Source: Dehalococcoidales bacterium
Lineage (GTDB): Bacteria; Chloroflexota; Dehalococcoidia; Dehalococcoidales; UBA5627
Length of the DNA: 64,000 nt
NCBI GenBank assembly: GCA_028707255.1
Contig: JAQTUQ010000003.1
Span: forward strand, 27,344-91,343
Direction of reading: 5' to 3'
A model generated the notes under the pieces. The model was not told the origin of the DNA. It saw only the letters and a list, made by a program, of their open reading frames with translations, and did no database searches. Position 1 is the stretch's first letter, and each line of letters starts with the position of its first letter. A program made the translations under genes and the position numbers. Shown here piece after piece: positions 4,343-45,508 of this stretch.

Positions 4343-5917
4343 TTATATCTTGACTACTTTAGCGCTGTAGACATCGGGCAAGGCTAATATATTATCTATT
4401 TGCTCTTTCGAGAACGGGGCATCCAGTGCCAGTATCATAAGAGCCTGTCCCCTGGGTTTTAAGCGACTTAAATGCATATAGCTGATATTGACATCCCCGT
4501 CGCCGGCAATCTTGCCGACAGCTCCAATAAGGCCCGGTCGGTCGCGGTGGTCGCTGAACAGGAAGTAGCCGCCGGTTGGAATAATATCTATCCAATAGTC
4601 ATTTACTCTGACGACGTGGGTTTCCCCACGCAGCACAGTGCCTGCAATGGTAATTGATTCATTGCTGGTGGTAATCTCGAGAGTTATCAGGTTGGCGTAA
4701 TTTTCACAAGTGGTTTCTTTTTGCTCGATTACTTTAATGCCGCGACGGGAAGCAATAATATTGGCGTTAACAACATTGACTCTTTCTTCCGTCAACCGGT
4801 TGAGAACACCGCCCAGTATCGCTGCCTTTAAAGCATTGGTATCATAGCTGGATATTTCACCCTGATATTTAATATGAAGACCGGTCATTTGTCCTTCGCC
4901 CAGGTAGCTTGCCACGTTACCGATGGTAGTACATACTTCAAGGAACGGAGCAAGGAAAGGCATTGCTTCTGCCTTTATAAAAGGAGCATTGACGGCATAT
5001 CTGGCAGGCTGGCCGTTGAATACATCGATAATCTGCTGAACCACCTCGGTAGTAGCCAGTGTCTGAGCTTCAGTTGTAGAAGCGCCCAGGTGTGGAGTTA
5101 CTATAATTTTATCGCATTCAAAAAGCGGGCTTTCTGTACAGGGTTCATTTTCGAAAACATCTATTGCTGCGCCGGCAACTCTCTTTTCCTTGACAGCTTT
5201 CACCAGCGCATCGTTATTTATAAGACCACCGCGGGCGGTATTGATTATGCGTACATTGGGTTTAACGGTAGCCAGTTCCTTTTCCCCGATTATGTTTTTG
5301 GTAGATTCGGTAAGAGGGATATGTAAAGTAATAAAATCGGATTCTTTAATAAGTTGTGCCAGAGGAACCAGTTCTACCTGAAGATTGGCTGCCCTTTCGG
5401 ATGATATAATAGGGTCGTACCCGATAAGTTTCATTTCCAGGCCGCGTGCGCGCCTGGCTACTTCAGAACCGACATTACCAAGCCCCACGATGCCCAGTGT
5501 TTTCCCTTTTACTTCTATTCCCATAAATTCGGCTCTCTGCCATTTGCCGGATTTCAATGAGGTGTTAGCCTGCGGTATATTACGTGCCATGGCAAGCATT
5601 AAGGCAACGGCATGTTCTGCGGCGGATACAGTATTGCCGGTAGGGGCGTTAACGACGATAATGCCACGCTGGCTGGCGGCGTTAGTATCGATATTGTCGA
5701 CCCCGACACCGGCGCGTCCGATAATTTGCAGGTTTTTTCCGGCAGCAATAATATCTGCCGTAACCTGAGTCTGGCTGCGCACGATTAGTGCGTCATAATC
5801 TCCGATTATGGGGATTATGTCTTCAGGGCTTTGCTTTGTTTTCACATCTACCTGGGCATACTTGCTCAGTAAATCTATCCCTTCCTGGGCTATGGGGTCG
5901 GCAACTAATACTTTCAT
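4343..5917 (-). CDS. serA: D-3-phosphoglycerate dehydrogenase SerA (with C-terminal ACT domain)
   Basis: MKVLVADPIAQEGIDLLSKYA; GRAGVGVDNID; GLGNVGSEVARRA; TPHLGASTTEAQ; ACT-like C-terminus HRDRPGLIGAVGKI. Confidence 0.97.
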   Translation of the reverse strand: MKVLVADPIAQEGIDLLSKYAQVDVKTKQSPEDIIPIIGDYDALIVRSQTQVTADIIAAGKNLQIIGRAGVGVDNIDTNAASQRGIIVVNAPTGNTVSAAEHAVALMLAMARNIPQANTSLKSGKWQRAEFMGIEVKGKTLGIVGLGNVGSEVARRARGLEMKLIGYDPIISSERAANLQVELVPLAQLIKESDFITLHIPLTESTKNIIGEKELATVKPNVRIINTARGGLINNDALVKAVKEKRVAGAAIDVFENEPCTESPLFECDKIIVTPHLGASTTEAQTLATTEVVQQIIDVFNGQPARYAVNAPFIKAEAMPFLAPFLEVCTTIGNVASYLGEGQMTGLHIKYQGEISSYDTNALKAAILGGVLNRLTEERVNVVNANIIASRRGIKVIEQKETTCENYANLITLEITTSNESITIAGTVLRGETHVVRVNDYWIDIIPTGGYFLFSDHRDRPGLIGAVGKIAGDGDVNISYMHLSRLKPRGQALMILALDAPFSKEQIDNILALPDVYSAKVVKI

Positions 5918-33747: not shown

Positions 33748-34695
33748 TTAACTGGCTTTTGAAAAGCTAATCTGGATCATATCTGGATTGCCCCACACGC
33801 CTATACTGATGGAAAAACTCAGGTCGTCGATAACTCCCCTGATTAGCGTGCGCTGGCCGTTGTATTCCTGGGTGACAGTCTCTTCATAATCCTGCATATC
33901 GCTGTAAAGCGCGCGATAATATTCTATGGCTTCCTCATAAGTACCGGTATGGCTGAATAATTTGGAGGAAATTATCGTTCCCGACGGAGGATTACTGGTA
34001 CATGAGTGATATTCCGCCCACATATCACCCAATCGATACAGGTTTTGAAGCGATTCTGGGAAATCCGTATGGAAAGGATTAGAGGTAATATTAAGGGTAT
34101 TGGGTAACAGCACGTACAGGTAAACTATGTTATTACCGCTCCAGTAGTCCCAGCGCGCATCGACATAGTAATCACCGATAGTTCCCACAGCATCGTAAAA
34201 TGAGGAATCCTCTCTTGTTTGGAGAAGGGAATTATAATACGCGGCAATTTCTGTCTGCGTTTTATCGGTAATATAGACGACTTTATATGCGTTAACATAA
34301 TATCCCATGTCGTTATAGGCAGGAAACTGTATATCCAGGGCACAAAGGTCTATAGCCAGTTTACCGTATAACGGCCAGATATCTTCAGGGTATCCATCCA
34401 GCAGGTAACCGCGGAAATTACTGTAAGGGTCAGTTGTGGTTATCGCCGTACTGGTTGAGGGAGCGGTTGTCGTTGTGCCGGAGGCGCTAACGGTAGAAGT
34501 AAATGTTATAGTTGTAGAGGAAGTAACAGTTATGGTAGTCGGGATTGATACCGTAGCAGTAATTGTGCTTGTTGTTCGTTCTGTATTTGTAAGAGTAACA
34601 GTTTCCGCCGGAGGCTTGCTACAACCTGATAGCGCTATTACGGTAAGTAAGCCTGCCAAAACGCCTGATATAACCATAGATCTGTATTTATTCAA
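33748..34695 (-). CDS. Lipoprotein with Thr/Ser-rich linker, function unknown
   Basis: VIALSGCSKPP lipobox followed by TVTLTNTERTTSTITATVSIPTTITVTSSTT linker. Confidence 0.8.
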   Translation of the reverse strand: MNKYRSMVISGVLAGLLTVIALSGCSKPPAETVTLTNTERTTSTITATVSIPTTITVTSSTTITFTSTVSASGTTTTAPSTSTAITTTDPYSNFRGYLLDGYPEDIWPLYGKLAIDLCALDIQFPAYNDMGYYVNAYKVVYITDKTQTEIAAYYNSLLQTREDSSFYDAVGTIGDYYVDARWDYWSGNNIVYLYVLLPNTLNITSNPFHTDFPESLQNLYRLGDMWAEYHSCTSNPPSGTIISSKLFSHTGTYEEAIEYYRALYSDMQDYEETVTQEYNGQRTLIRGVIDDLSFSISIGVWGNPDMIQISFSKAS

Positions 34696-34868: not shown

Positions 34869-37800
34869 TTATCCCAGTACTTCTCTTATCTTACTTTCCA
34901 GAGTTTGACGGTCGAAAGGCTTGCTAATGGAATGGAGATTATATTTCTGAAGGAAGTTTTTTACTTCGCTGTTTGAGGAATCACCGGTTGTAAACAGAAC
35001 CTTTTTCGACATATACGGCTTGTCATTTACCGCTTTTTCGAATAGTTCCTGCCCGCTCATACCGGGCATCCTGATGTCTATTATAATAAGGTCGTAATTA
35101 TTACCGACGATTTTTTGCATGGCTTCATACGGGTCGCCGATTGTCTCCACAGCATAATCAGAAGTATTCAGTGTCGATTTTATGAATTGCCGTATCGTCG
35201 GTTCGTCATCAACGACAAGTACGTTTATTTTTTTAATATTATCTTTAGTTTTCAGTGATGGAGCGGATTCAAATGATTCATCTTGTACATAACCTTGTGT
35301 TACAGGTAATTCTATTATAAAAGTAGCCCCGTTATTTACTTCGCTTTCAACGGAAATCGTTCCGCCGTGTTCGGCGATTATTGAGCGTGACAGGCTTAAA
35401 CCCAATCCTGTACCCTCACCGACAGGCTTGGTAGTAAAAAACGGCTGAAATAGCTTTTTTATATTTTCCTCTGAAATACCCAGTCCGCTATCTGAAAATG
35501 CTATTCTTATTTTATCACCGATTTTTTGGGTAACGATTTTAAGTTCGCCGGCTTTACCTGTTTTCCTCATAGAATATTCCGCATTAATAATTAAATTCAA
35601 AAATACCTGCTGGATTTGCCCCGGGTCGATAGTAATTAGTGGTATGCCTGTATCGTATTGTACATTTACATCGATATTATTGGTCTTGAGAACGTAATTT
35701 CGCATATTTAACGTATTTTCAATAAGCTCATTAACATTGACCATTGCTTTTGCCGGTTTATGCTGACGTGCAAAAGTAAGTAGCCTTTTAACTATATCGG
35801 CTACCCTGCGGCTGCCGTTGGCGATGATCTCTACCTGTTCCTTCATATCCTGCGGAAGTTCTCTCTCGAGCAGCATATCGGAAAAGCCGATTACACCGGT
35901 CAGCGGATTATTAATTTCATGGGCAATTCCTGCCGCCATTTCCCCTACGGAAGCAAGACGGCTCGATATCTCAGCCTTTTCCTGAAGCAGCCGTTTTTCC
36001 TCTTCCGCTTTTTTAACCTGCGTAATATCTCTCATTATATGAACCGAGGCAATTATTTCATCCTGCGGGTTTCTGATAGGGAATGCGGTAATCTCAAAAT
36101 ATCGGTCGAATACGTCATAATGCAGTTCAATGGTCGATGATTCGTTAGTACTTAACATTACCAAATGAGGGCAATTCGGTAACGGATGTTCGGTCTGATG
36201 TACTATTTGATAGCAGGTTTTTCCGGCAATATCATCGGGCTGGACGTTAAAAAGGTCGGCATATGCCTTGTTTACTCGGAGTATTTTAAAATTATTGCTT
36301 TGGAGAGAAACAGGCATGGGAATAGAATCGAATGTTATCTGCCATTCCTCAGCCGCCTGCCTTAATTTTTCTTCGGTGCGTTTACGTTCCGCAATATCTG
36401 CCGCAATCAGTATCCAGCTCCTGAGCGATATAGCAACGACAGGAGCTAATCCCTGTATCAGAAATAAATCATCCGAAGAATATCTCTGTTTTGTAGCTTT
36501 GGGAGAAAGGCAAATGCCGCCTATTTCCTTATCGCTGGCAATAAGGGGAATTAAAAATTCGACATTCGGATTTACTAAAACCGCTGAATTAGGGAAAATA
36601 ATGCTGCTGTTACGTTCCGACAGCAGGTTTATCATTTGCTGCTGATGTTCATCTTCGGTATATATGCCTATGGATGCTACAATTTCATATTTTTCATTTT
36701 CGGTTGCAGTAAACAGGCAGGCACCTTCCAGATTTATTTTTTTAGCCAGTGTATTTACGATAAGGGTAGAACCGGTAACAATATCCGTAATCGAATTGAG
36801 TGCAGAACCCAGCTCTTGAATAGTTTTACGGTAGTCGTATTTATCTTTATAAAAGAACTTGTCTACCAGGAATTCGATGCCGTTCTTCACCGGGCCGAAG
36901 AGCAAGCTTGCCAGGATGCCCATTACCAGCGCGATTAGAACAGCCTGTAATACCGATAATGTTTGCACATTAAAGAGCATCAGGATAATTACCAGTGCAA
37001 AAATTGCGGCAATTACTAATGAAATTGCCGCGTATATCACGCCGCGCCTGATGAAAACGTTTATATCCAGCAGTTTTTGCGTCATTACGGCATACCCCAT
37101 GCCTATAGGAATAAGCGCAATAAAAATGACGCTGAAGCTTGATGATATGAGAATATCCCCGGTTACTAATGTTGGCAATAAGCTAAGCACTAAAAATGGA
37201 GCTACTGCCGCTATACAGAAATATAATAATAGCCTCATTTGTTGCCGTGTCCTGGGGGAAACGGCGCTAATATAATTGTAGATAGCTACACCGATAACTG
37301 CCAGAAATCCTATTATTAGTTCTATTGCCCTGATTGAACGGAACCACATAGTTGGTTCGCTATTATTATGACCAATAAATGGATAAAGAATCAATGTTAT
37401 TATTGCTGGTAAATAAATCAGATATACATAAGGATTATTTCGTAACCTGCTTCTTTCTGCCGGCAGAATTAAGAAAAAGTGAAGTAGTAGCCATGGCCCT
37501 ATAATGGTTGCCATTATAGCAAGATGCATGGCATTAGGAATTCGTACAACTCCAGCGACATTACCGAGTATGGCTAGTCCAAACGTTAATGAACATAATA
37601 ATAGTAATATTGCAATTGCGCTTCTCGGTTTGTTATAAAATACGTAATAAGCTGTCAACCAGAATATTATGCATACTATTAAATACGGAATTAATTCGGT
37701 TATATATTGCGGTGGGGGAGAACTATTTTCAATAGTGGCGGAAATGCTTTCTCCTGCCTTATTTATTACTGTTATATCTGTGATTAACAGTCCTAGACAT

Positions 37801-38120
37801 TGTTTTGGTTCTTCATACGCCTGCAGAAAATCACTTGCCGATTGCCCGTTAATTATTGTGGGGGAATCTCCTATTTTTATCCCTGCTTGTTGTCCGAGAC
37901 CGGATGAATCTATACTTTGAACAACCCATCCGCTGTCGATTAAATGCAATGACACTCCGATATATGTTTTATTTAAACTGGGGATAAACAACAGCAGTGA
38001 AACGGCTATAATAACAAAACCGAATAGTGAAATGGCGATTTCTTTTTTATGTTTTAATATATTTTTAAACAATATAGATTCACCAGTTGGCTCGTTATTT
38101 TTACCTTTTCCGTAGTTCAT
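34869..38120 (-). CDS. ComP-like hybrid sensor histidine kinase: TM-PDZ-multi-TM-GAF-PAS-HisKA-HATPase-REC
   Basis: IGVSLHLIDSGWVVQSIDSSGLGQQAGIKIGDSPTIINGQ (PDZ-like); multi-TM; AHEINNPLTGVIGFSDML (H box); GEGTGLGLSLSRSI (G box); C-terminal REC VLVVDDEPTIRQ..IIDIRMPGMSG. Likely ATG at 38120, overlapping the upstream TGA as ATGA; track ORF extends to 38159. Confidence 0.9.
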   Translation of the reverse strand: MNYGKGKNNEPTGESILFKNILKHKKEIAISLFGFVIIAVSLLLFIPSLNKTYIGVSLHLIDSGWVVQSIDSSGLGQQAGIKIGDSPTIINGQSASDFLQAYEEPKQCLGLLITDITVINKAGESISATIENSSPPPQYITELIPYLIVCIIFWLTAYYVFYNKPRSAIAILLLLCSLTFGLAILGNVAGVVRIPNAMHLAIMATIIGPWLLLHFFLILPAERSRLRNNPYVYLIYLPAIITLILYPFIGHNNSEPTMWFRSIRAIELIIGFLAVIGVAIYNYISAVSPRTRQQMRLLLYFCIAAVAPFLVLSLLPTLVTGDILISSSFSVIFIALIPIGMGYAVMTQKLLDINVFIRRGVIYAAISLVIAAIFALVIILMLFNVQTLSVLQAVLIALVMGILASLLFGPVKNGIEFLVDKFFYKDKYDYRKTIQELGSALNSITDIVTGSTLIVNTLAKKINLEGACLFTATENEKYEIVASIGIYTEDEHQQQMINLLSERNSSIIFPNSAVLVNPNVEFLIPLIASDKEIGGICLSPKATKQRYSSDDLFLIQGLAPVVAISLRSWILIAADIAERKRTEEKLRQAAEEWQITFDSIPMPVSLQSNNFKILRVNKAYADLFNVQPDDIAGKTCYQIVHQTEHPLPNCPHLVMLSTNESSTIELHYDVFDRYFEITAFPIRNPQDEIIASVHIMRDITQVKKAEEEKRLLQEKAEISSRLASVGEMAAGIAHEINNPLTGVIGFSDMLLERELPQDMKEQVEIIANGSRRVADIVKRLLTFARQHKPAKAMVNVNELIENTLNMRNYVLKTNNIDVNVQYDTGIPLITIDPGQIQQVFLNLIINAEYSMRKTGKAGELKIVTQKIGDKIRIAFSDSGLGISEENIKKLFQPFFTTKPVGEGTGLGLSLSRSIIAEHGGTISVESEVNNGATFIIELPVTQGYVQDESFESAPSLKTKDNIKKINVLVVDDEPTIRQFIKSTLNTSDYAVETIGDPYEAMQKIVGNNYDLIIIDIRMPGMSGQELFEKAVNDKPYMSKKVLFTTGDSSNSEVKNFLQKYNLHSISKPFDRQTLESKIREVLG

Positions 38121-39064
38121 CTTAAGAAAATCCTCAATTTTTCTGTATCGATGCCGCAATTTTCAGCTTTATCGACAGCTCCGGATGCCAGCAACCTGTA
38201 CGATTCCATTTTTATAGCTGTGTAATGTACTGCTCCGCTATTTGATAGTATATACGAAATCTGCTCTATTGTAATCTCGTCATCCGATTTATTCCGGTAA
38301 TATCTTTCTAATTGATTACGAACAGGCTCTTCTGATTGGGATAGCGCAAATATAACAGGTAAAGTAATTTTTTTATTTACTAAGTCCTTTTTACTGATTA
38401 TGCCTGCGATATCGTTTGTTATTTGTGCCATCATTCCCAGGCTATAACCGAACTCCTTAAATATATCAAGCAGGTCTTTATTTTCGGTAGCTAACAACGC
38501 ACCTGTATAGCTGGCACATTCGATTTGGGATGCCGATTTTAAACTCAGAATATCCAGGTAATCGTCTTCTGAAATGTCAATTTTTTTCCCACAGGATAAA
38601 TCCTTATGTTGCCCGGTACAGGCAATTAAATAATACGAATTAATGGCATCGAGGATGCGGACTATCGTCCTGTCGTCTACATTTCTATCTTTAAGCCGGG
38701 AGATGGCTTTCTCGCCGAGTACCAGCAGGGTAGTTGCAATATTATTTGTTATTGCAGTTCCGTATCTGGAAGATAACGACAGAGGGGAGTCATTGTCTTC
38801 GATATCATCGAAAACATCGCCGGCAGCCATAAAAAATTGCAGCGATGCGCAAAGTGGTATCGCTTCTTCATAATTGCCGCATATAGATTCACAGGTAATC
38901 AATGGCAACAAAACCCAAGGGGCTTCACGTTCGCTTGCAACAGCCAACCCTCTCCTGCTTACTGTTAATGGCTCTCTGACAAAACCACTAAGTTCTTCAG
39001 GCAATAAGGAAACGGAGGACTCTATCTCCTCGCGTAGAAGCTTTTTTTGTAGGCCATCATTCAT
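38117..39064 (-). CDS. Isoprenyl diphosphate synthase family protein, ComQ-like
   Basis: First Asp-rich motif GDVFDDIEDNDSP; second MAQITNDIAGIISKKDLVNKKITLPVIFALSQS; short all-alpha class I isoprenoid synthase. Confidence 0.85.
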   Translation of the reverse strand: MNDGLQKKLLREEIESSVSLLPEELSGFVREPLTVSRRGLAVASEREAPWVLLPLITCESICGNYEEAIPLCASLQFFMAAGDVFDDIEDNDSPLSLSSRYGTAITNNIATTLLVLGEKAISRLKDRNVDDRTIVRILDAINSYYLIACTGQHKDLSCGKKIDISEDDYLDILSLKSASQIECASYTGALLATENKDLLDIFKEFGYSLGMMAQITNDIAGIISKKDLVNKKITLPVIFALSQSEEPVRNQLERYYRNKSDDEITIEQISYILSNSGAVHYTAIKMESYRLLASGAVDKAENCGIDTEKLRIFLR

Positions 39065-39094: not shown

Positions 39095-39313
39095 TTAAAG
39101 CCAGAATAGTGCTGCTTCAATACCAACCGATAATGCCGGGGAATTGGAGGTTGCAAGTCCGAGTCTGGCATTGGTATTCAAAACAGCTGTTCTTTCATGG
39201 TCGCTAAGGTTATAGCGGCTCATTACGCTGTCGGGATTTGCCAGAAACTGTTCTTTGGTGGCTTCGTCGCAAAAGATATTTTTTACCATTTCCTGTAATG
39301 ACTGTGATTTCAC
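39095..39313 (-). CDS. 72-aa ComX-like/RiPP-like precursor peptide ending in ...EAALFWL
   Basis: GTG start at 39313 preceded by AAGGAGG-TTGTCC; sequence MKSQSLQEMVKNIFCDEATKEQFLANPDSVMSRYNLSDHERTAVLNTNARLGLATSNSPALSVGIEAALFWL; promoter at 39361-39389 supports this shorter start. Confidence 0.75.
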   Translation of the reverse strand: MKSQSLQEMVKNIFCDEATKEQFLANPDSVMSRYNLSDHERTAVLNTNARLGLATSNSPALSVGIEAALFWL

Positions 39314-39360: not shown

Positions 39361-39389
39361 AGTATAATATGAAATCAAGATAAGGTCAA
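39361..39389 (-). promoter_or_regulatory. Putative sigma-70 promoter of the comX-comQ-comP-like operon
   Basis: Reverse strand: TTGACC (39389-39384), 17-nt spacer, TATACT (39366-39361). Confidence 0.75.
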
Positions 39390-39509
39390 TAAAAATCGTG
39401 GTATTTTTAAGGTGAATCATATAGTAAAAAAGTACTATATGACAAACTATATGGCTATAACTAAGCTGTCAATCCATAGTTAGACAAATTCATTATTGAA
39501 AGAACGGAA

Positions 39510-39905
39510 TTATTTATTAGCAAGTAATTTATTAATTGTTTCCATCAGCGCTTGAGTTTCAAAAGGTTTGGTTATATATTCATTTGCCCCCATGATATCC
39601 AAGCTAAGTTTTCGGTTCAGATCGTGGTCGAGTGCTGTAATCATGATAACCGGTATATTGGAGGTAAGCGGATTACTTTTTATTATATGGCAGGCAACAT
39701 CGCCGTTCATCCTTGGCATCATGATATCCATTAGAATGATATCGGGATGTTGACTGTGGGTTAAATCGACTGCCAGTTTGCCGTCGCCGGCTTCGATAAT
39801 GTTATAGCTATTAGAGAGTATGCGGCTTAATAAAGACCTTACATGTTCTTCGTCGTCTACGATCAATACTGTTTTTTTCCCGGTTTTATTTCCCATAATT
39901 ATCAC
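39510..39905 (-). CDS. Stand-alone response regulator receiver domain
   Basis: VLIVDDEEHVRSLLSRIL..DIILMDIMMPRMNG..ITALDHD..YITKPF; no output domain. Confidence 0.95.
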   Translation of the reverse strand: MIIMGNKTGKKTVLIVDDEEHVRSLLSRILSNSYNIIEAGDGKLAVDLTHSQHPDIILMDIMMPRMNGDVACHIIKSNPLTSNIPVIMITALDHDLNRKLSLDIMGANEYITKPFETQALMETINKLLANK

Positions 39906-40827: not shown

Positions 40828-41649
40828 CTATTTTTCAACCCTCCAGGATATCAATGCCCATTTTGTGGAAGAATTCTTATAGAATCCGCCATTATTTTCC
40901 GTAAGCAGTGATTTAACAAAGCTCTCATAATTGTCCAAATCTGCGTTATCAGGTATGGTATTTTTGGAATAATATTTAACGGCTTCGCTTAAATCCCTAA
41001 AATACATATTTGTTTCGGATTCAAAAATTTCTATATCAGCCTTTATCCCGATTTGATAGAGGCAATTGTAAATAACAGGATATTCCGGGTAGGGGGTATA
41101 TTCTTTATCAAGCAGACGACAGGATTCCGCTTCAATGCTGTCGAAACTCTGCGCCCTCCATGTTACATAACAATACGTTTTAGCTATGGTGGTCATATTT
41201 TCAAGCGTAGCCCGCAGATGGTTCCCCATCGGCAAAAAACGCGAAGCCAGTACTATATCATGCAATTTTATTTCCGATTTAACGTCCATCTCATACCAGT
41301 TTTTATTGACAATATCGATATTGGATATTCCCAGTGATTCTATTTTACTTTTTAATAAATTAAGCATACCGTTCGAGATATCCAGTACCGTAACATGGCG
41401 CACTTTCTGTGCAATGGGCAAGGACATCAGCCCGCTTCCTCCGCCGACATCCAAAACGGAGTAACCGGGAGAAAGTTGCATTCGTTTAATGAGTTCATCG
41501 GTATAAGTGCTTTGGCTGACATTTTTTTCATAGGATTCCGATCTTTTATCCCAGAATGCGGCTGCTTCCTCTCCTGTATGCAGGATGTGTCCCGCCTGCA
41601 TTTTCCAGATATTCTCCCAGTCCATATCTTTGATATATTTATAATTCAT
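40828..41649 (-). CDS. Class I SAM-dependent methyltransferase
   Basis: YSVLDVGGGSGLMSLPIAQKVRHVTVLDIS motif I. Confidence 0.88.
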   Translation of the reverse strand: MNYKYIKDMDWENIWKMQAGHILHTGEEAAAFWDKRSESYEKNVSQSTYTDELIKRMQLSPGYSVLDVGGGSGLMSLPIAQKVRHVTVLDISNGMLNLLKSKIESLGISNIDIVNKNWYEMDVKSEIKLHDIVLASRFLPMGNHLRATLENMTTIAKTYCYVTWRAQSFDSIEAESCRLLDKEYTPYPEYPVIYNCLYQIGIKADIEIFESETNMYFRDLSEAVKYYSKNTIPDNADLDNYESFVKSLLTENNGGFYKNSSTKWALISWRVEK

Positions 41650-41668
41650 CGATTAAGATATCCCCTTA

Positions 41669-42292
41669 TTATTTTGTTATTTCTATCCAGATGCCTTCGC
41701 AATCAAAGATGACGCTCCCTTTCAATCCTGTAGCCGCGATAGCATTAACAAAATAGGCTGTATTTTGTCCTTTATCTCTGATATTCGGCGCTTCGCGCCA
41801 GTTGTTTCGGACGTTTTTATAGCGTGGGTCGGTTGCTATCACTTGTTGTATTCTCCTGCTTATTTCACGGCTGCCCAGACCGCCGCCGCAAAAGATTTTT
41901 CCGCCGGGCTTTAATACCCGGTATATTTCCTTTATGGCACCCGGCAGATCGTCCCAGAAAAAAACAGAACCCCTGCTGACAATTAAATCAAAACTATTAT
42001 CAGGAAACGGGATGTCATGGACGTCGGTTTTTATAACCATCATCCTGTGAGCCAATCCCTCGAACAGGATATTTTTAATCGTTACATCTATGGCAGCGGA
42101 ATCGTTATCCAGCGATACGACATAAAGATTGGTTATTTTTGCCAGCGCTATTCCAAGGGAACCTGCTCCGGCGCCGATATCGAGACAATAACCTTCCTTA
42201 TATCCATACTTATCCGTAATGTAAAGAGCCAGGTATGGATAAACCTCAGAAAAAAGGCGGCTCATTCTCTCGATATCGGTTTGTGTGTTCAT
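41669..42292 (-). CDS. Class I SAM-dependent methyltransferase
   Basis: GYCLDIGAGAGSLGIALAKITNLYVVSLDND; FDLIVSRGSVFFWDDLPGAIKEIYRVLKPGGKIFCGGG. Confidence 0.9.
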   Translation of the reverse strand: MNTQTDIERMSRLFSEVYPYLALYITDKYGYKEGYCLDIGAGAGSLGIALAKITNLYVVSLDNDSAAIDVTIKNILFEGLAHRMMVIKTDVHDIPFPDNSFDLIVSRGSVFFWDDLPGAIKEIYRVLKPGGKIFCGGGLGSREISRRIQQVIATDPRYKNVRNNWREAPNIRDKGQNTAYFVNAIAATGLKGSVIFDCEGIWIEITK

Positions 42293-43035
42293 TTCTGCAT
42301 TACTTTAAAGATAATCTCACCGTGGCAAACCTTGCTGTTAATCATACCGCCACTCTGATTGATTTTCCTTATTATGGCGTCGGGTATGATTACTTCAGCG
42401 CCGGCAATCATATCGGCGCCGTAGTCAAACAAAAGCTCGGACATTACTGTGCTTGGTCCCATTACAACCGTATACGCCTTGCTTTTTTGGGCAAGCGCAA
42501 GCAGCCGCTCCATGGATTTATTTATCAGAGTGGAACCTGTAATGACAAGCAAATCGCAATCGGGAATGACGTATTCGGCTGCCGAATCAGGCAATATTCC
42601 GTTTTTAGCGTCAAGCTGATAAGGGTCCAATTCAAGTACAATCATCTTTTTTGCGACTGCCTTTAAAGCATCCATAAAAGGAAATGCTCCCACCATTACT
42701 ACGTTCTTATCTTTACCTTTTTCAAGAACGAATCTGTCTGCGTTTAAATCGAGAAATTCTTTTTTAGGAGCTACCATTGAATTAATAGCTGCCACACCGA
42801 TACTCGCCTCCGTGAGATTCCACGATTTTGCATATCCGGCAAGTTCCAATGAGGACTTATCGGTCAGATTTCCCATATCTGTTACATAATTACCATGCTT
42901 TACCGGAATGCCATAGGTTTTAGCCAGCCCGCAGTACATTGCATTAACAGCCGTCCACGACACTCCAAGCGTAACGTTTTTTACCGGCGCATCGTTTTCT
43001 TTTACGGAAGAAATTAAATCATCAATCAATTTCAT
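42289..43035 (-). CDS. DUF364/DUF4213 putative heavy-metal chelation protein
   Basis: LGVSWTAVNAMYCGLA; VVMVGAFPFMDALK; LVITGSTLINKSMERLL; VMGPSTVMSELLFDYGADMIAGAEV. Internal ATG at 43035 preferred; track ORF extends to 43134. Confidence 0.82.
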   Translation of the reverse strand: MKLIDDLISSVKENDAPVKNVTLGVSWTAVNAMYCGLAKTYGIPVKHGNYVTDMGNLTDKSSLELAGYAKSWNLTEASIGVAAINSMVAPKKEFLDLNADRFVLEKGKDKNVVMVGAFPFMDALKAVAKKMIVLELDPYQLDAKNGILPDSAAEYVIPDCDLLVITGSTLINKSMERLLALAQKSKAYTVVMGPSTVMSELLFDYGADMIAGAEVIIPDAIIRKINQSGGMINSKVCHGEIIFKVMQK

Positions 43036-43054
43036 AGATAATTTCTTCCCGCTT

Positions 43055-43630
43055 CTATGCTTTAACCTTATAGTAAGCCCCGTAAAGGCAGGATTTGCAA
43101 TAGGGTCTTTCATCTTTAAATACGGCTCTGCCATCCATAACTCTTTCCCCGCATTTTGTGCATACTGCTTTCTCTTTGGGAGCGCCTGGGAGGTCGTTTT
43201 CGGGTATATCCACCTCTACTTTTTGCAGGAGCAGCAATTCTTCATCGGGCGTTTCCGATACTATTTTCAGTACCTCATCGACGGAAAGATTCTTGTCAAA
43301 ATCCTTGGTCGTAGTTACCCGGTATGCTTCGCCGGTCGATAATTTTACAAATGTAGCGGCGAATTTTCCGTAATCTACATATTTGAGAGACCTTTTGCCG
43401 AGTCCGCAGCCGCTTACTCCCTGCACGGCATCGGTCATGCAACGGTCGGTTTCTACATATACAATCAAATCCTTGTGTTTTTTTACATACGGGTCGAATC
43501 CCAGAACACGCATTGCCGCCAGCGAGGATTTGGTGCCCATAGCGATTCCGACGCAGACATGCCCGTGGAATTCTTCAATCTTTTTAACAAAATAATAAAA
43601 ATCCTCGATTTCTTTAGCGCTTACTGTCAT
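43055..43630 (-). CDS. FmdE family protein with C-terminal zinc-ribbon
   Basis: EEFHGHVCVGIAMGTKSSLAAM; DRCMTDAVQGVSGCGLGKRSL; CTKCGERVMDGRAVFKDERPYCKSC. Confidence 0.9.
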   Translation of the reverse strand: MTVSAKEIEDFYYFVKKIEEFHGHVCVGIAMGTKSSLAAMRVLGFDPYVKKHKDLIVYVETDRCMTDAVQGVSGCGLGKRSLKYVDYGKFAATFVKLSTGEAYRVTTTKDFDKNLSVDEVLKIVSETPDEELLLLQKVEVDIPENDLPGAPKEKAVCTKCGERVMDGRAVFKDERPYCKSCLYGAYYKVKA

Positions 43631-43667
43631 TAATAGATATCCCCTTTCATAATTAATAAATATATAG

Positions 43668-44453
43668 TTAATCGATTGGAACGCATATCTTGCGGTTTAT
43701 ATCCGAATCCAATTGTAATACTTTTACCTTAATGCCGTAAATATTATACAGGTTTTCCTCAGTTACCACTTCGTCGGGTATTCCGATTGCCAGAAATTTT
43801 CCGTCATTCATAATAGCCACCTTGTTTGCTACCAGGAAAACATGGTCAGGGAAATGCGAAGTCATAATCGACGGCAAACCGTTTTTCGTTATTTCTTTCA
43901 ATATATTTAAGAAGCGGTTTTGATTTCCGAAGTCCAGGTGCGAAGTCGGTTCGTCCAGCAGTAAAATCGATGATTTTTGCGCCAGGACGCGGGCAAACAT
44001 GACCATTTGTCTCTCACCGCCGCTGATATTGGTATACGGTCTTTCATGCAGGTGGTAGATATTAAGCTGGCGCAATGTTTCGCGGCATATTTCTATGTCC
44101 TTTTCCGATGGTGTGGACATTAACCCGATGTAAGCGGTTCTTCCCATGAGAACGGCATCCAGAACCGTATATGGAAATGTCGGTGCATGCAGTTGCGGAA
44201 TGTAGCCTATGTTTTTGGCGATTTCATGCCGTTTCATCTGCCCGATATTATGATTATCCACAATTATTTCGCCGCCGGTAATAGTCAGTAAATTGGCTAT
44301 GCATTTAAGCAGCGTTGTTTTTCCGCAACCGTTAGGGCCTAATATGCATAAATTGTCTCCATCGGATAGACTAAAACTGATTTCGTTGAATACATCGTCT
44401 TGACTGCCGAAGTATCTGAAAGAGGCATTATTAATTTCCAATTTTATACCCAT
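43668..44453 (-). CDS. ABC transporter ATP-binding protein (FecE/BtuD type)
   Basis: LGPNGCGKTTLLKCIANL Walker A; ISGGERQMVMFARVLAQKSSILLLDEPTSHLDFGNQ. Confidence 0.95.
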   Translation of the reverse strand: MGIKLEINNASFRYFGSQDDVFNEISFSLSDGDNLCILGPNGCGKTTLLKCIANLLTITGGEIIVDNHNIGQMKRHEIAKNIGYIPQLHAPTFPYTVLDAVLMGRTAYIGLMSTPSEKDIEICRETLRQLNIYHLHERPYTNISGGERQMVMFARVLAQKSSILLLDEPTSHLDFGNQNRFLNILKEITKNGLPSIMTSHFPDHVFLVANKVAIMNDGKFLAIGIPDEVVTEENLYNIYGIKVKVLQLDSDINRKICVPID

Positions 44454-45508
44454 CCCTGTTTCCCCTTTCTTATTAAATAGAGGAAGAACGGAACCCCGAC
44501 TATGGCAGTCAATATTCCGATTGGAATCTCGACGGACAGGGCAGTGCGGCAGATGTTATCTATAATTAACATATATATTCCGCCAAGAAGCGCCGAAACC
44601 GGTAACAGTTTTTTATTGCACGGCCCGACCAGCATTCTGCCGATATGCGGCATAACCAACCCTACCCAACCTATCATTCCGCTGATGGAAACAGCCGCGG
44701 CGGTTATCAGGCTGGCGCAAACAATTATTATCGCTCTTAACTGAGTGGTATTTACTCCCAGCGCTTTAGCCTCTTCTTCTCCCATAGACAGGACATTGAT
44801 ACGCCAGCGAATGAGCATAAGAACCGTAATGCCCACTAGGATGATAACGGCTACCGTAATCAGGTCTTTCATATATATCGAGTTAAGGCTTCCCATCAAC
44901 CAAAAAACGATTTCGGGCAATTCATCTTCAGGGTCTGCCATATACTGCATAAGGGAAGTCAGCGCAGAAAATAAAGCTCCGATTGCCATACCCGCCAAAA
45001 CCAGTGTAAGCGTCGGATTTCCCCTGACACGACTGCTTATCAACCATGATATGACCACGGCTAAAATGGCTACTCCGAAAGCGCTGATTTGAATAACCGC
45101 CGGATTACCTGAAATTACGATTGCCAGGGCAGCTCCGAATCCTGCTCCCGAAGTTACGCCGAGTATCTGAGGAGAAACCAGCGGGTTGCGAAATAGACCC
45201 TGAAAGGAAGCTCCGGCAGTCGCCAGCGCCGCACCGATCAGTATCGCCGCCAGGATACGCGGGAGCCTGATGTCAAAAATTACCGTTTCCATAATATCCG
45301 GCCAGGTGGGCGTTATCGGGAATATTTTGGAGAGAAAAATCTGGGTTACCTGGGCTGGGGAGATACCGTATCTCCCCAGCCAAAAGGATATTACGAACAG
45401 TATTATCAGCGATATGAACAGGCTAAGTGTTATCGTCGGTGTCTTCTTCCAGAAGGAAACCGGCTTTTTTAAATCCTCTTTGCATTTGGTATCTTTTCGG
45501 GTTGTCAT
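44444..45508 (-). CDS. FecCD/BtuC family ABC permease
   Basis: DIRLPRILAAILIGAALATAGASFQGLFRNPLVSPQILGVTSGAGFGAAL; GMIGWVGLVMPHIGRMLVGP. Confidence 0.96.
   Translation of the reverse strand: MTTRKDTKCKEDLKKPVSFWKKTPTITLSLFISLIILFVISFWLGRYGISPAQVTQIFLSKIFPITPTWPDIMETVIFDIRLPRILAAILIGAALATAGASFQGLFRNPLVSPQILGVTSGAGFGAALAIVISGNPAVIQISAFGVAILAVVISWLISSRVRGNPTLTLVLAGMAIGALFSALTSLMQYMADPEDELPEIVFWLMGSLNSIYMKDLITVAVIILVGITVLMLIRWRINVLSMGEEEAKALGVNTTQLRAIIIVCASLITAAAVSISGMIGWVGLVMPHIGRMLVGPCNKKLLPVSALLGGIYMLIIDNICRTALSVEIPIGILTAIVGVPFFLYLIRKGKQGWV

Follow-up and report, generated by a model that had tools for sequence, protein, structure and literature searches.

The small open reading frame at 39095–39313 on the minus strand of the window (the whole 64,000-nt stretch of DNA analysed) raises the question of whether a 72-residue peptide with a penultimate tryptophan is a genuine precursor and, if so, in which kind of system it serves. 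The original prediction saw a precursor with either a ComX-like or an NHLP/Os1348-like leader and held that these two readings lead to different chemistry. Our analysis favours a single reading with a probability of roughly 0.78, namely that the precursor (X), the adjacent enzyme (Q) and the receptor (P) form a prenylated-tryptophan peptide pheromone circuit of the ComQXP/PalXQP type, as judged from sequence.

X is the first gene of X-Q-P and, by its pattern of conservation, a real gene. As predicted, its 72-codon frame starts with GTG at 39313 behind AAGGAGG-N6 and places the penultimate tryptophan at W71 (codon 39103–39101, minus strand). Relatives carry ATG or GTG at exactly the same codon, preceded by AGGAGG or a sequence close to it; hence GTG at 39313 is the right start, and a longer 86-residue reading of the frame is wrong. 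Codon evolution in the window's genus was coding-like, with a pooled pN/pS of 0.10/0.44 and an omega (dN/dS) of about 0.17. The tail is not hypervariable within the genus, as omega was 0.18 in the tail vs 0.16 in the leader. The predicted operon promoter, TTGACC-N17-TATACT at 39361–39389 (minus strand), is also present; its pattern count did not exceed chance (2 found vs 1.7 expected), but TTGA and TATACT do not vary across six genomes.

The peptide consists of a helical leader of the NHLP/LigA clan (residues 1 to about 51) and a C-terminal segment ending in AALFWL. A tryptophan lies at most six residues from the C-terminus in 19 of 19 recovered X homologues, compared to about 10% of background ORFs (unrelated ATG-ORFs of similar length), and since the X sequences are related, these are not 19 independent events. 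The set comprises 15 aligned members plus the peptides of loci L107, L110, L065 and L116, the last identified by position and tryptophan alone and not by profile. Lengths range from 68 to 76 residues, and the tryptophan is penultimate in most peptides, with one residue after it in most and five at maximum. Only P27, L36 and W71 are invariant in the 15 aligned members, and the tails have almost fully diverged around the tryptophan (AALFWL, PLMLWL, GPMAGWL, DPWWAPEP, TLDWWWS, SALSPEWT, VLYWQ, AAQWS).

Profile comparisons place the leader in the NHLP/LigA (Os1348) clan and not with the ComX pro-region. NF038399 matches 14 of the 15 aligned members (best 1e-7) and PF07746 (LigA) likewise matches 14 of 15, which bears out the predicted NHLP/Os1348-like leader; X is related to this clan below the curated NF038399 cut-off, the window's X scoring 15.1 bits where 40 bits are required. 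An X profile search of the PDB recovered the LigA-domain borosin precursor SonA. The AF2 model of X has helices at residues 4–15, 17–25, 27–31 and 38–51 and a tail of low confidence, and Foldseek returned weak matches only (E ≥ 0.39; the LigA-like part of DesB, and SonA). No Pfam match linked X to the ComX family, a PF05952 search gave nothing at the locus, and hhalign against four ComX sequences yielded a probability of 0.5%. Membership of X in the ComX family by sequence was therefore dropped. What is ComX-like about the locus is the enzyme, the receptor and the C-terminal tryptophan. Moreover, the two readings are not alternatives, and the claim that they entail different chemistry was mistaken, because PalX/PalQ/PalP unites an NHLP-type leader with a prenylated tryptophan (PMC10853753).

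The prenyl-synthase-like and ComP-like genes in the operon of X had been passed over in the original prediction. Q (38117–39064, minus strand, 315 aa), a predicted ComQ-type tryptophan prenyltransferase, begins 30 bases downstream of X and matches PF00348 (2.4e-21). Its AF2 model (pLDDT 90.9) has an all-alpha isoprenoid synthase fold, with structure matches that include the tryptophan prenyltransferase Ord1. Q has an intact FARM (DDIED, within VFDDIEDND, residues 84–92) and a degenerate second Asp motif of the form QxxND with a short loop (pseudo-SARM QITNDIAG, residues 214–221), whereas housekeeping synthases have QxxDD and a long loop. In a motif comparison, QxxND and the short loop were also found in ComQ of Lysinibacillus, Anoxybacillus and Priestia. 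In nearly all Q members, Asn replaces the first Asp of the SARM and Gly the last; the Q of L116 is exceptional in having DD at the second Asp motif. Pairwise identity between Q and ComQ is low (about 25–29%), and in a tree the two group together, separated from the housekeeping synthases by a branch with 100/100 support. This small tree, built from Q, ComQ and housekeeping synthases after removal of two fragments and a pair of very long branches, did not discriminate between Chloroflexota Q as a single clade apart from ComQ and other arrangements (AU p 0.40); an earlier tree that included these fragments and branches gave no resolution. Loci L009–L015 from the first Q search turned out to be ordinary GGPP synthases, several of them beside dxs, and were set aside and used as an outgroup.

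Q might instead be an ordinary accessory prenyl diphosphate synthase, supplying lipids, quinones or carotenoids, that simply lies between a small LigA-like protein and a sensor kinase. Q does score above the PF00348 cut-off and adopts the isoprenoid synthase fold, but we regard this explanation as unlikely in view of the substituted SARM, the position of Q with ComQ in the tree, and the terminal-tryptophan X that adjoins Q wherever the flank is available in the close family. A second, much better matching housekeeping synthase is encoded elsewhere in the same genome (contig C26), so that Q appears to be a specialised extra copy; together with the degenerate SARM, this synthase speaks against a housekeeping role for Q.

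The motifs of Q also bear on its substrate. ComQ is described as having a FARM but no SARM, the motif involved in binding the acceptor (PMC10853753), and the Gln preceding the SARM has been implicated in tryptophan recognition (PMC13290415). In Q this Gln is the invariant Q214, and canonical synthases carry the same residue. Every trans-IDS-like peptide prenyltransferase characterised to date modifies tryptophan (PMC13290415). PalQ retains both SARM Asp residues (D200 and D204, at Q197+3 and Q197+7), which correspond to N217 and G221 in the QxxND...G motif of Q. PalQ requires an exactly C-terminal tryptophan and tolerates no residue after it (PMC10853753); as most X peptides have one or more residues there, the specificity of Q must be more ComQ-like. 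The proposal of a precursor peptide with W71 as a plausible prenylation site is well supported, and better so than from the peptide itself, because the genes that follow encode an enzyme of the ComQ type and a sensor of the ComP type.

P (34869–38120, minus strand, about 1083 aa) is a ComP-like receptor according to Pfam, hydrophobic segments and hhalign, and its ATG and the Q stop codon share bases (ATGA). The domain order is TM1, PDZ(-like), nine further TM segments, PAS, HisKA, HATPase_c and receiver, i.e. a hybrid kinase with 10 hydrophobic segments in its input part; ComP has ten TM segments (PMC4008528). By profile alignment, the input domain of P is homologous to that of ComP: its N-terminal 420 residues matched the input part of ComP proteins encoded by plasmid-borne comQXP loci (hhalign probability 99.7%, E 2e-26, 394 columns). 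The output part varies. It is a hybrid kinase in the window's genus and in Dehalogenimonas-like genomes, a plain kinase in L022, L023, L040, L041 and L110, and a HisKA_3-type kinase with a NarL-type regulator after P in L111 and L116. In the P homologues of L044 (6460–8868), L045 (10505–12751) and L109 (787–3150), the ComP-like input domain is present but HD-GYP replaces the histidine kinase, which points to a c-di-GMP output. The window locus contains receiver domains only and no DNA-binding ComA homologue. An orphan P-type receptor was found in L108 (3525–5930) with no X or Q alongside; it adjoins an HTH_17-receiver protein resembling the one that precedes X in L022.

The receptor is also relevant to the idea that X stays in the cytoplasm to regulate Q or P or to serve them as an adaptor, with a LigA-like fold and a docking tryptophan, and is never modified or secreted. 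X has a folded helical domain, no classical signal peptide and a tail that is conserved within the genus, all compatible with such a role. However, ComX and PalX likewise have no signal peptides, P has the architecture of an external peptide sensor, and a near-C-terminal tryptophan as the sole constant of an otherwise divergent tail fits a substrate, which leaves the adaptor role very improbable.

The existence of X as a gene, its operon with Q and P, the conserved acceptor tryptophan and the homologies of enzyme and receptor are evident at the sequence level. For the favoured pheromone circuit, we infer prenylation, cleavage, export, binding and regulatory output along the following lines. 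The NHLP/LigA-like helical leader would dock the translated precursor on Q, whose FARM would hold a prenyl diphosphate, and a prenyl group (C10–C20) would be transferred to the indole of W71. The prenylated W71 would probably close to a tricyclic pyrroloindoline like that of ComX and PalX. Housekeeping factors would then cleave off a short C-terminal lipopeptide with the end ...FWL and export it; the X-Q-P operon contains no peptidase or exporter dedicated to these steps, and comQXPA is likewise without them (PMC4008528). Homology and operon structure suggest that P senses the secreted product of its own species, presumably via the 10-TM/PDZ input, and sensing would change P autophosphorylation and phosphoflow via the fused receiver and possibly also the adjacent lone receiver. 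This lone receiver domain (CheY/PleD-like; 39510–39905, minus strand; PF00072, 2.2e-25) lies directly upstream, is kept in L020, L021 and L024, and may work with P in a phosphorelay.

Upstream of the -35 box, a perfect inverted repeat with 10-bp arms, TCATATAGTA-CTTTTT-TACTATATGA (39417–39442, minus strand), is a candidate operator. Similar repeats, with arms one base shorter or a mismatch in them, occur in L020 (10106–10121) and L021 (9541–9556); the upstream palindrome of L030 differs from the window's repeat. The inverted repeat was also noted in L122 and L123 at 1501–1516. The exact repeat core TAGTA-N4-AGTACTA occurs three times in the genome. Of the other two copies, one is located 23 bases ahead of a winged-helix (HTH_45) gene and one about 250 bases ahead of the gene for a secreted protein; a copy with one mismatch (C51:2318) is found some 100 bases ahead of a secreted protein that seems to be similar. 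A regulon defined by this core was rejected, as at one mismatch the reversed control was about as frequent (6 vs 3 and 5). Downstream of P, a predicted secreted lipoprotein (33748–34695, minus strand) is kept in L020 and L021 and may not belong to the X-Q-P locus. Further upstream of X lie TatD, two SAM methyltransferases (40828–42292), DUF364, FmdE and an Fe-type ABC transporter, which are kept as neighbours in the genus only. That X, with its NHLP/LigA leader, is a RiPP precursor modified by other enzymes, such as these two methyltransferases, into a secreted natural product and not a pheromone is highly implausible, since the methyltransferases lie beyond the TatD gene and are conserved neighbours in the window's genus only, the Pfam scan of the upstream neighbourhood found no LanM, YcaO, radical SAM or peptidase-exporter, and the travelling partners of X are Q and P. 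The DUF364/DUF4213, FmdE-like and FecCD-type transport genes at 42289–45508 form a metal-related island conserved in the genus.

Among known systems, PalX/PalQ/PalP of Paenibacillus alvei is nearest to the proposed X-Q-P circuit by leader and cluster content. It has an NHLP-type leader, a conserved C-terminal tryptophan, an isoprenoid-synthase-like tryptophan prenyltransferase and an adjacent histidine kinase in three genes, with no ComA in its description (PMC10853753), but belongs to a different phylum and differs in the tryptophan position and SARM described above. By enzyme motif, tryptophan position and receptor, ComQXPA (PMC4008528) is nearest. The two have in common a ComQ-type enzyme with a FARM and a degenerate SARM, a tryptophan in the last 5–10 residues of a short precursor (52–73 aa in ComQXPA), and a ComP-type sensor kinase with about 10 TM segments and PDZ; the penultimate tryptophan of most X peptides also occurs in ComX from Anoxybacillus, Lysinibacillus and Priestia plasmids. 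In contrast, ComQXPA is a Firmicutes system with the order Q-X-P-A, a PF05952 precursor, hypervariable ComX pherotypes and an output of HisKA_3 plus an adjacent NarL/LuxR-type ComA, whereas the Chloroflexota loci have the order X-Q-P, an NHLP-clan leader, a tail that is not hypervariable within the genus and, except in L116, either HD-GYP or a HisKA kinase of the hybrid type; L111 and L116 have a NarL-type regulator after P, unlike the window locus. Because of the differences in ComX family, gene order, ComA and PalQ-type SARM, we placed X-Q-P in neither ComQXPA nor PalXQP. Os1348/NHLP RiPP precursors and the borosin SonA share the leader domain with X by profile, and weakly by fold, but are partnered with an N-methyltransferase, LanM or YcaO, where X has a prenyltransferase and a terminal-tryptophan tail.

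Gene order is X-Q-P in all loci, and this order and the tryptophan are common to deeply diverged genomes. Besides the window's genus, in which Q is present (G001–G005), X-Q-P was found in other families of the order Dehalococcoidales (L022, L023, L041), elsewhere in the Dehalococcoidia (L040, L044, L045, L110, L116) and in a single genome from a different Chloroflexota class (L065). At E ≤ 1e-40, Q had a match in 9 of the 396 genomes of the class, and the P input domain at E ≤ 1e-20 in 19 of 396. Most of the 121 phylum-wide Q-profile matches were weaker and housekeeping-like, and only loci with X and/or P nearby were counted. A scan of named genomes with Q returned three MAG contigs only. Cultured Dehalogenimonas etheniformans GP carries the locus, and among four closed chromosomes of one Dehalogenimonas-like genus it is intact in three (L042, L043, L046). 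In the fourth (L107, a 1,750,158-bp closed genome), an IS3-type transposase (rve_3, HTH_21; 4951–5712 within 5725–4639) truncates Q after about 200 residues, while X is intact and P is altered at its start, which fits the loss of an accessory function. The distribution is patchy, as the locus is absent from the closed genomes taken as Dehalococcoides (family f9, genus g9) and from several Dehalogenimonas-like closed genomes. On balance, we lean towards a distinct Chloroflexota-wide lineage that combines an NHLP/LigA leader, a ComQ-type enzyme and a ComP-type receptor with an exchangeable output module (hybrid histidine kinase, plain kinase, NarL-type pair or HD-GYP).

Such signalling appears undescribed in Chloroflexota, including cultured organohalide respirers. 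A 2014 census found no tryptophan-prenylated pheromone systems outside Firmicutes (PMC4008528), a KEGG-based survey listed ComP-ComA-type pairs in Chloroflexi and did not note the full pathway (PMC8895600), and our search of the open-access literature found no report of such a system in Chloroflexota or Dehalococcoidia. If the circuit is real, peptide signalling is in use among slow-growing organohalide respirers and among Dehalococcoidales of anaerobic digesters, and could be tested in the isolate D. etheniformans GP. It would join ComQXPA and PalXQP, with leader type, enzyme and receptor as separable modules, and add a divergent set of tryptophan prenyltransferases with penultimate-tryptophan substrates. 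A receptor with HD-GYP output would make the prenylated peptide a direct controller of c-di-GMP.

A near-identical X-Q pair (L030, 1–1664) lies on a contig of a MAG labelled Clostridiales, probably a binning error. The closest Chloroflexota counterpart to four-gene comQXPA is L116 (1527–5708), an X-Q-P-A locus with a NarL-type regulator, whose X ends in AAQWS. The same X-Q-P-A order was seen in Firmicutes on a Priestia megaterium plasmid (L055, 2966–6805), where a small ORF ending in NEWV is followed by a ComQ-like gene, a kinase and a regulator beside a lantibiotic cluster.
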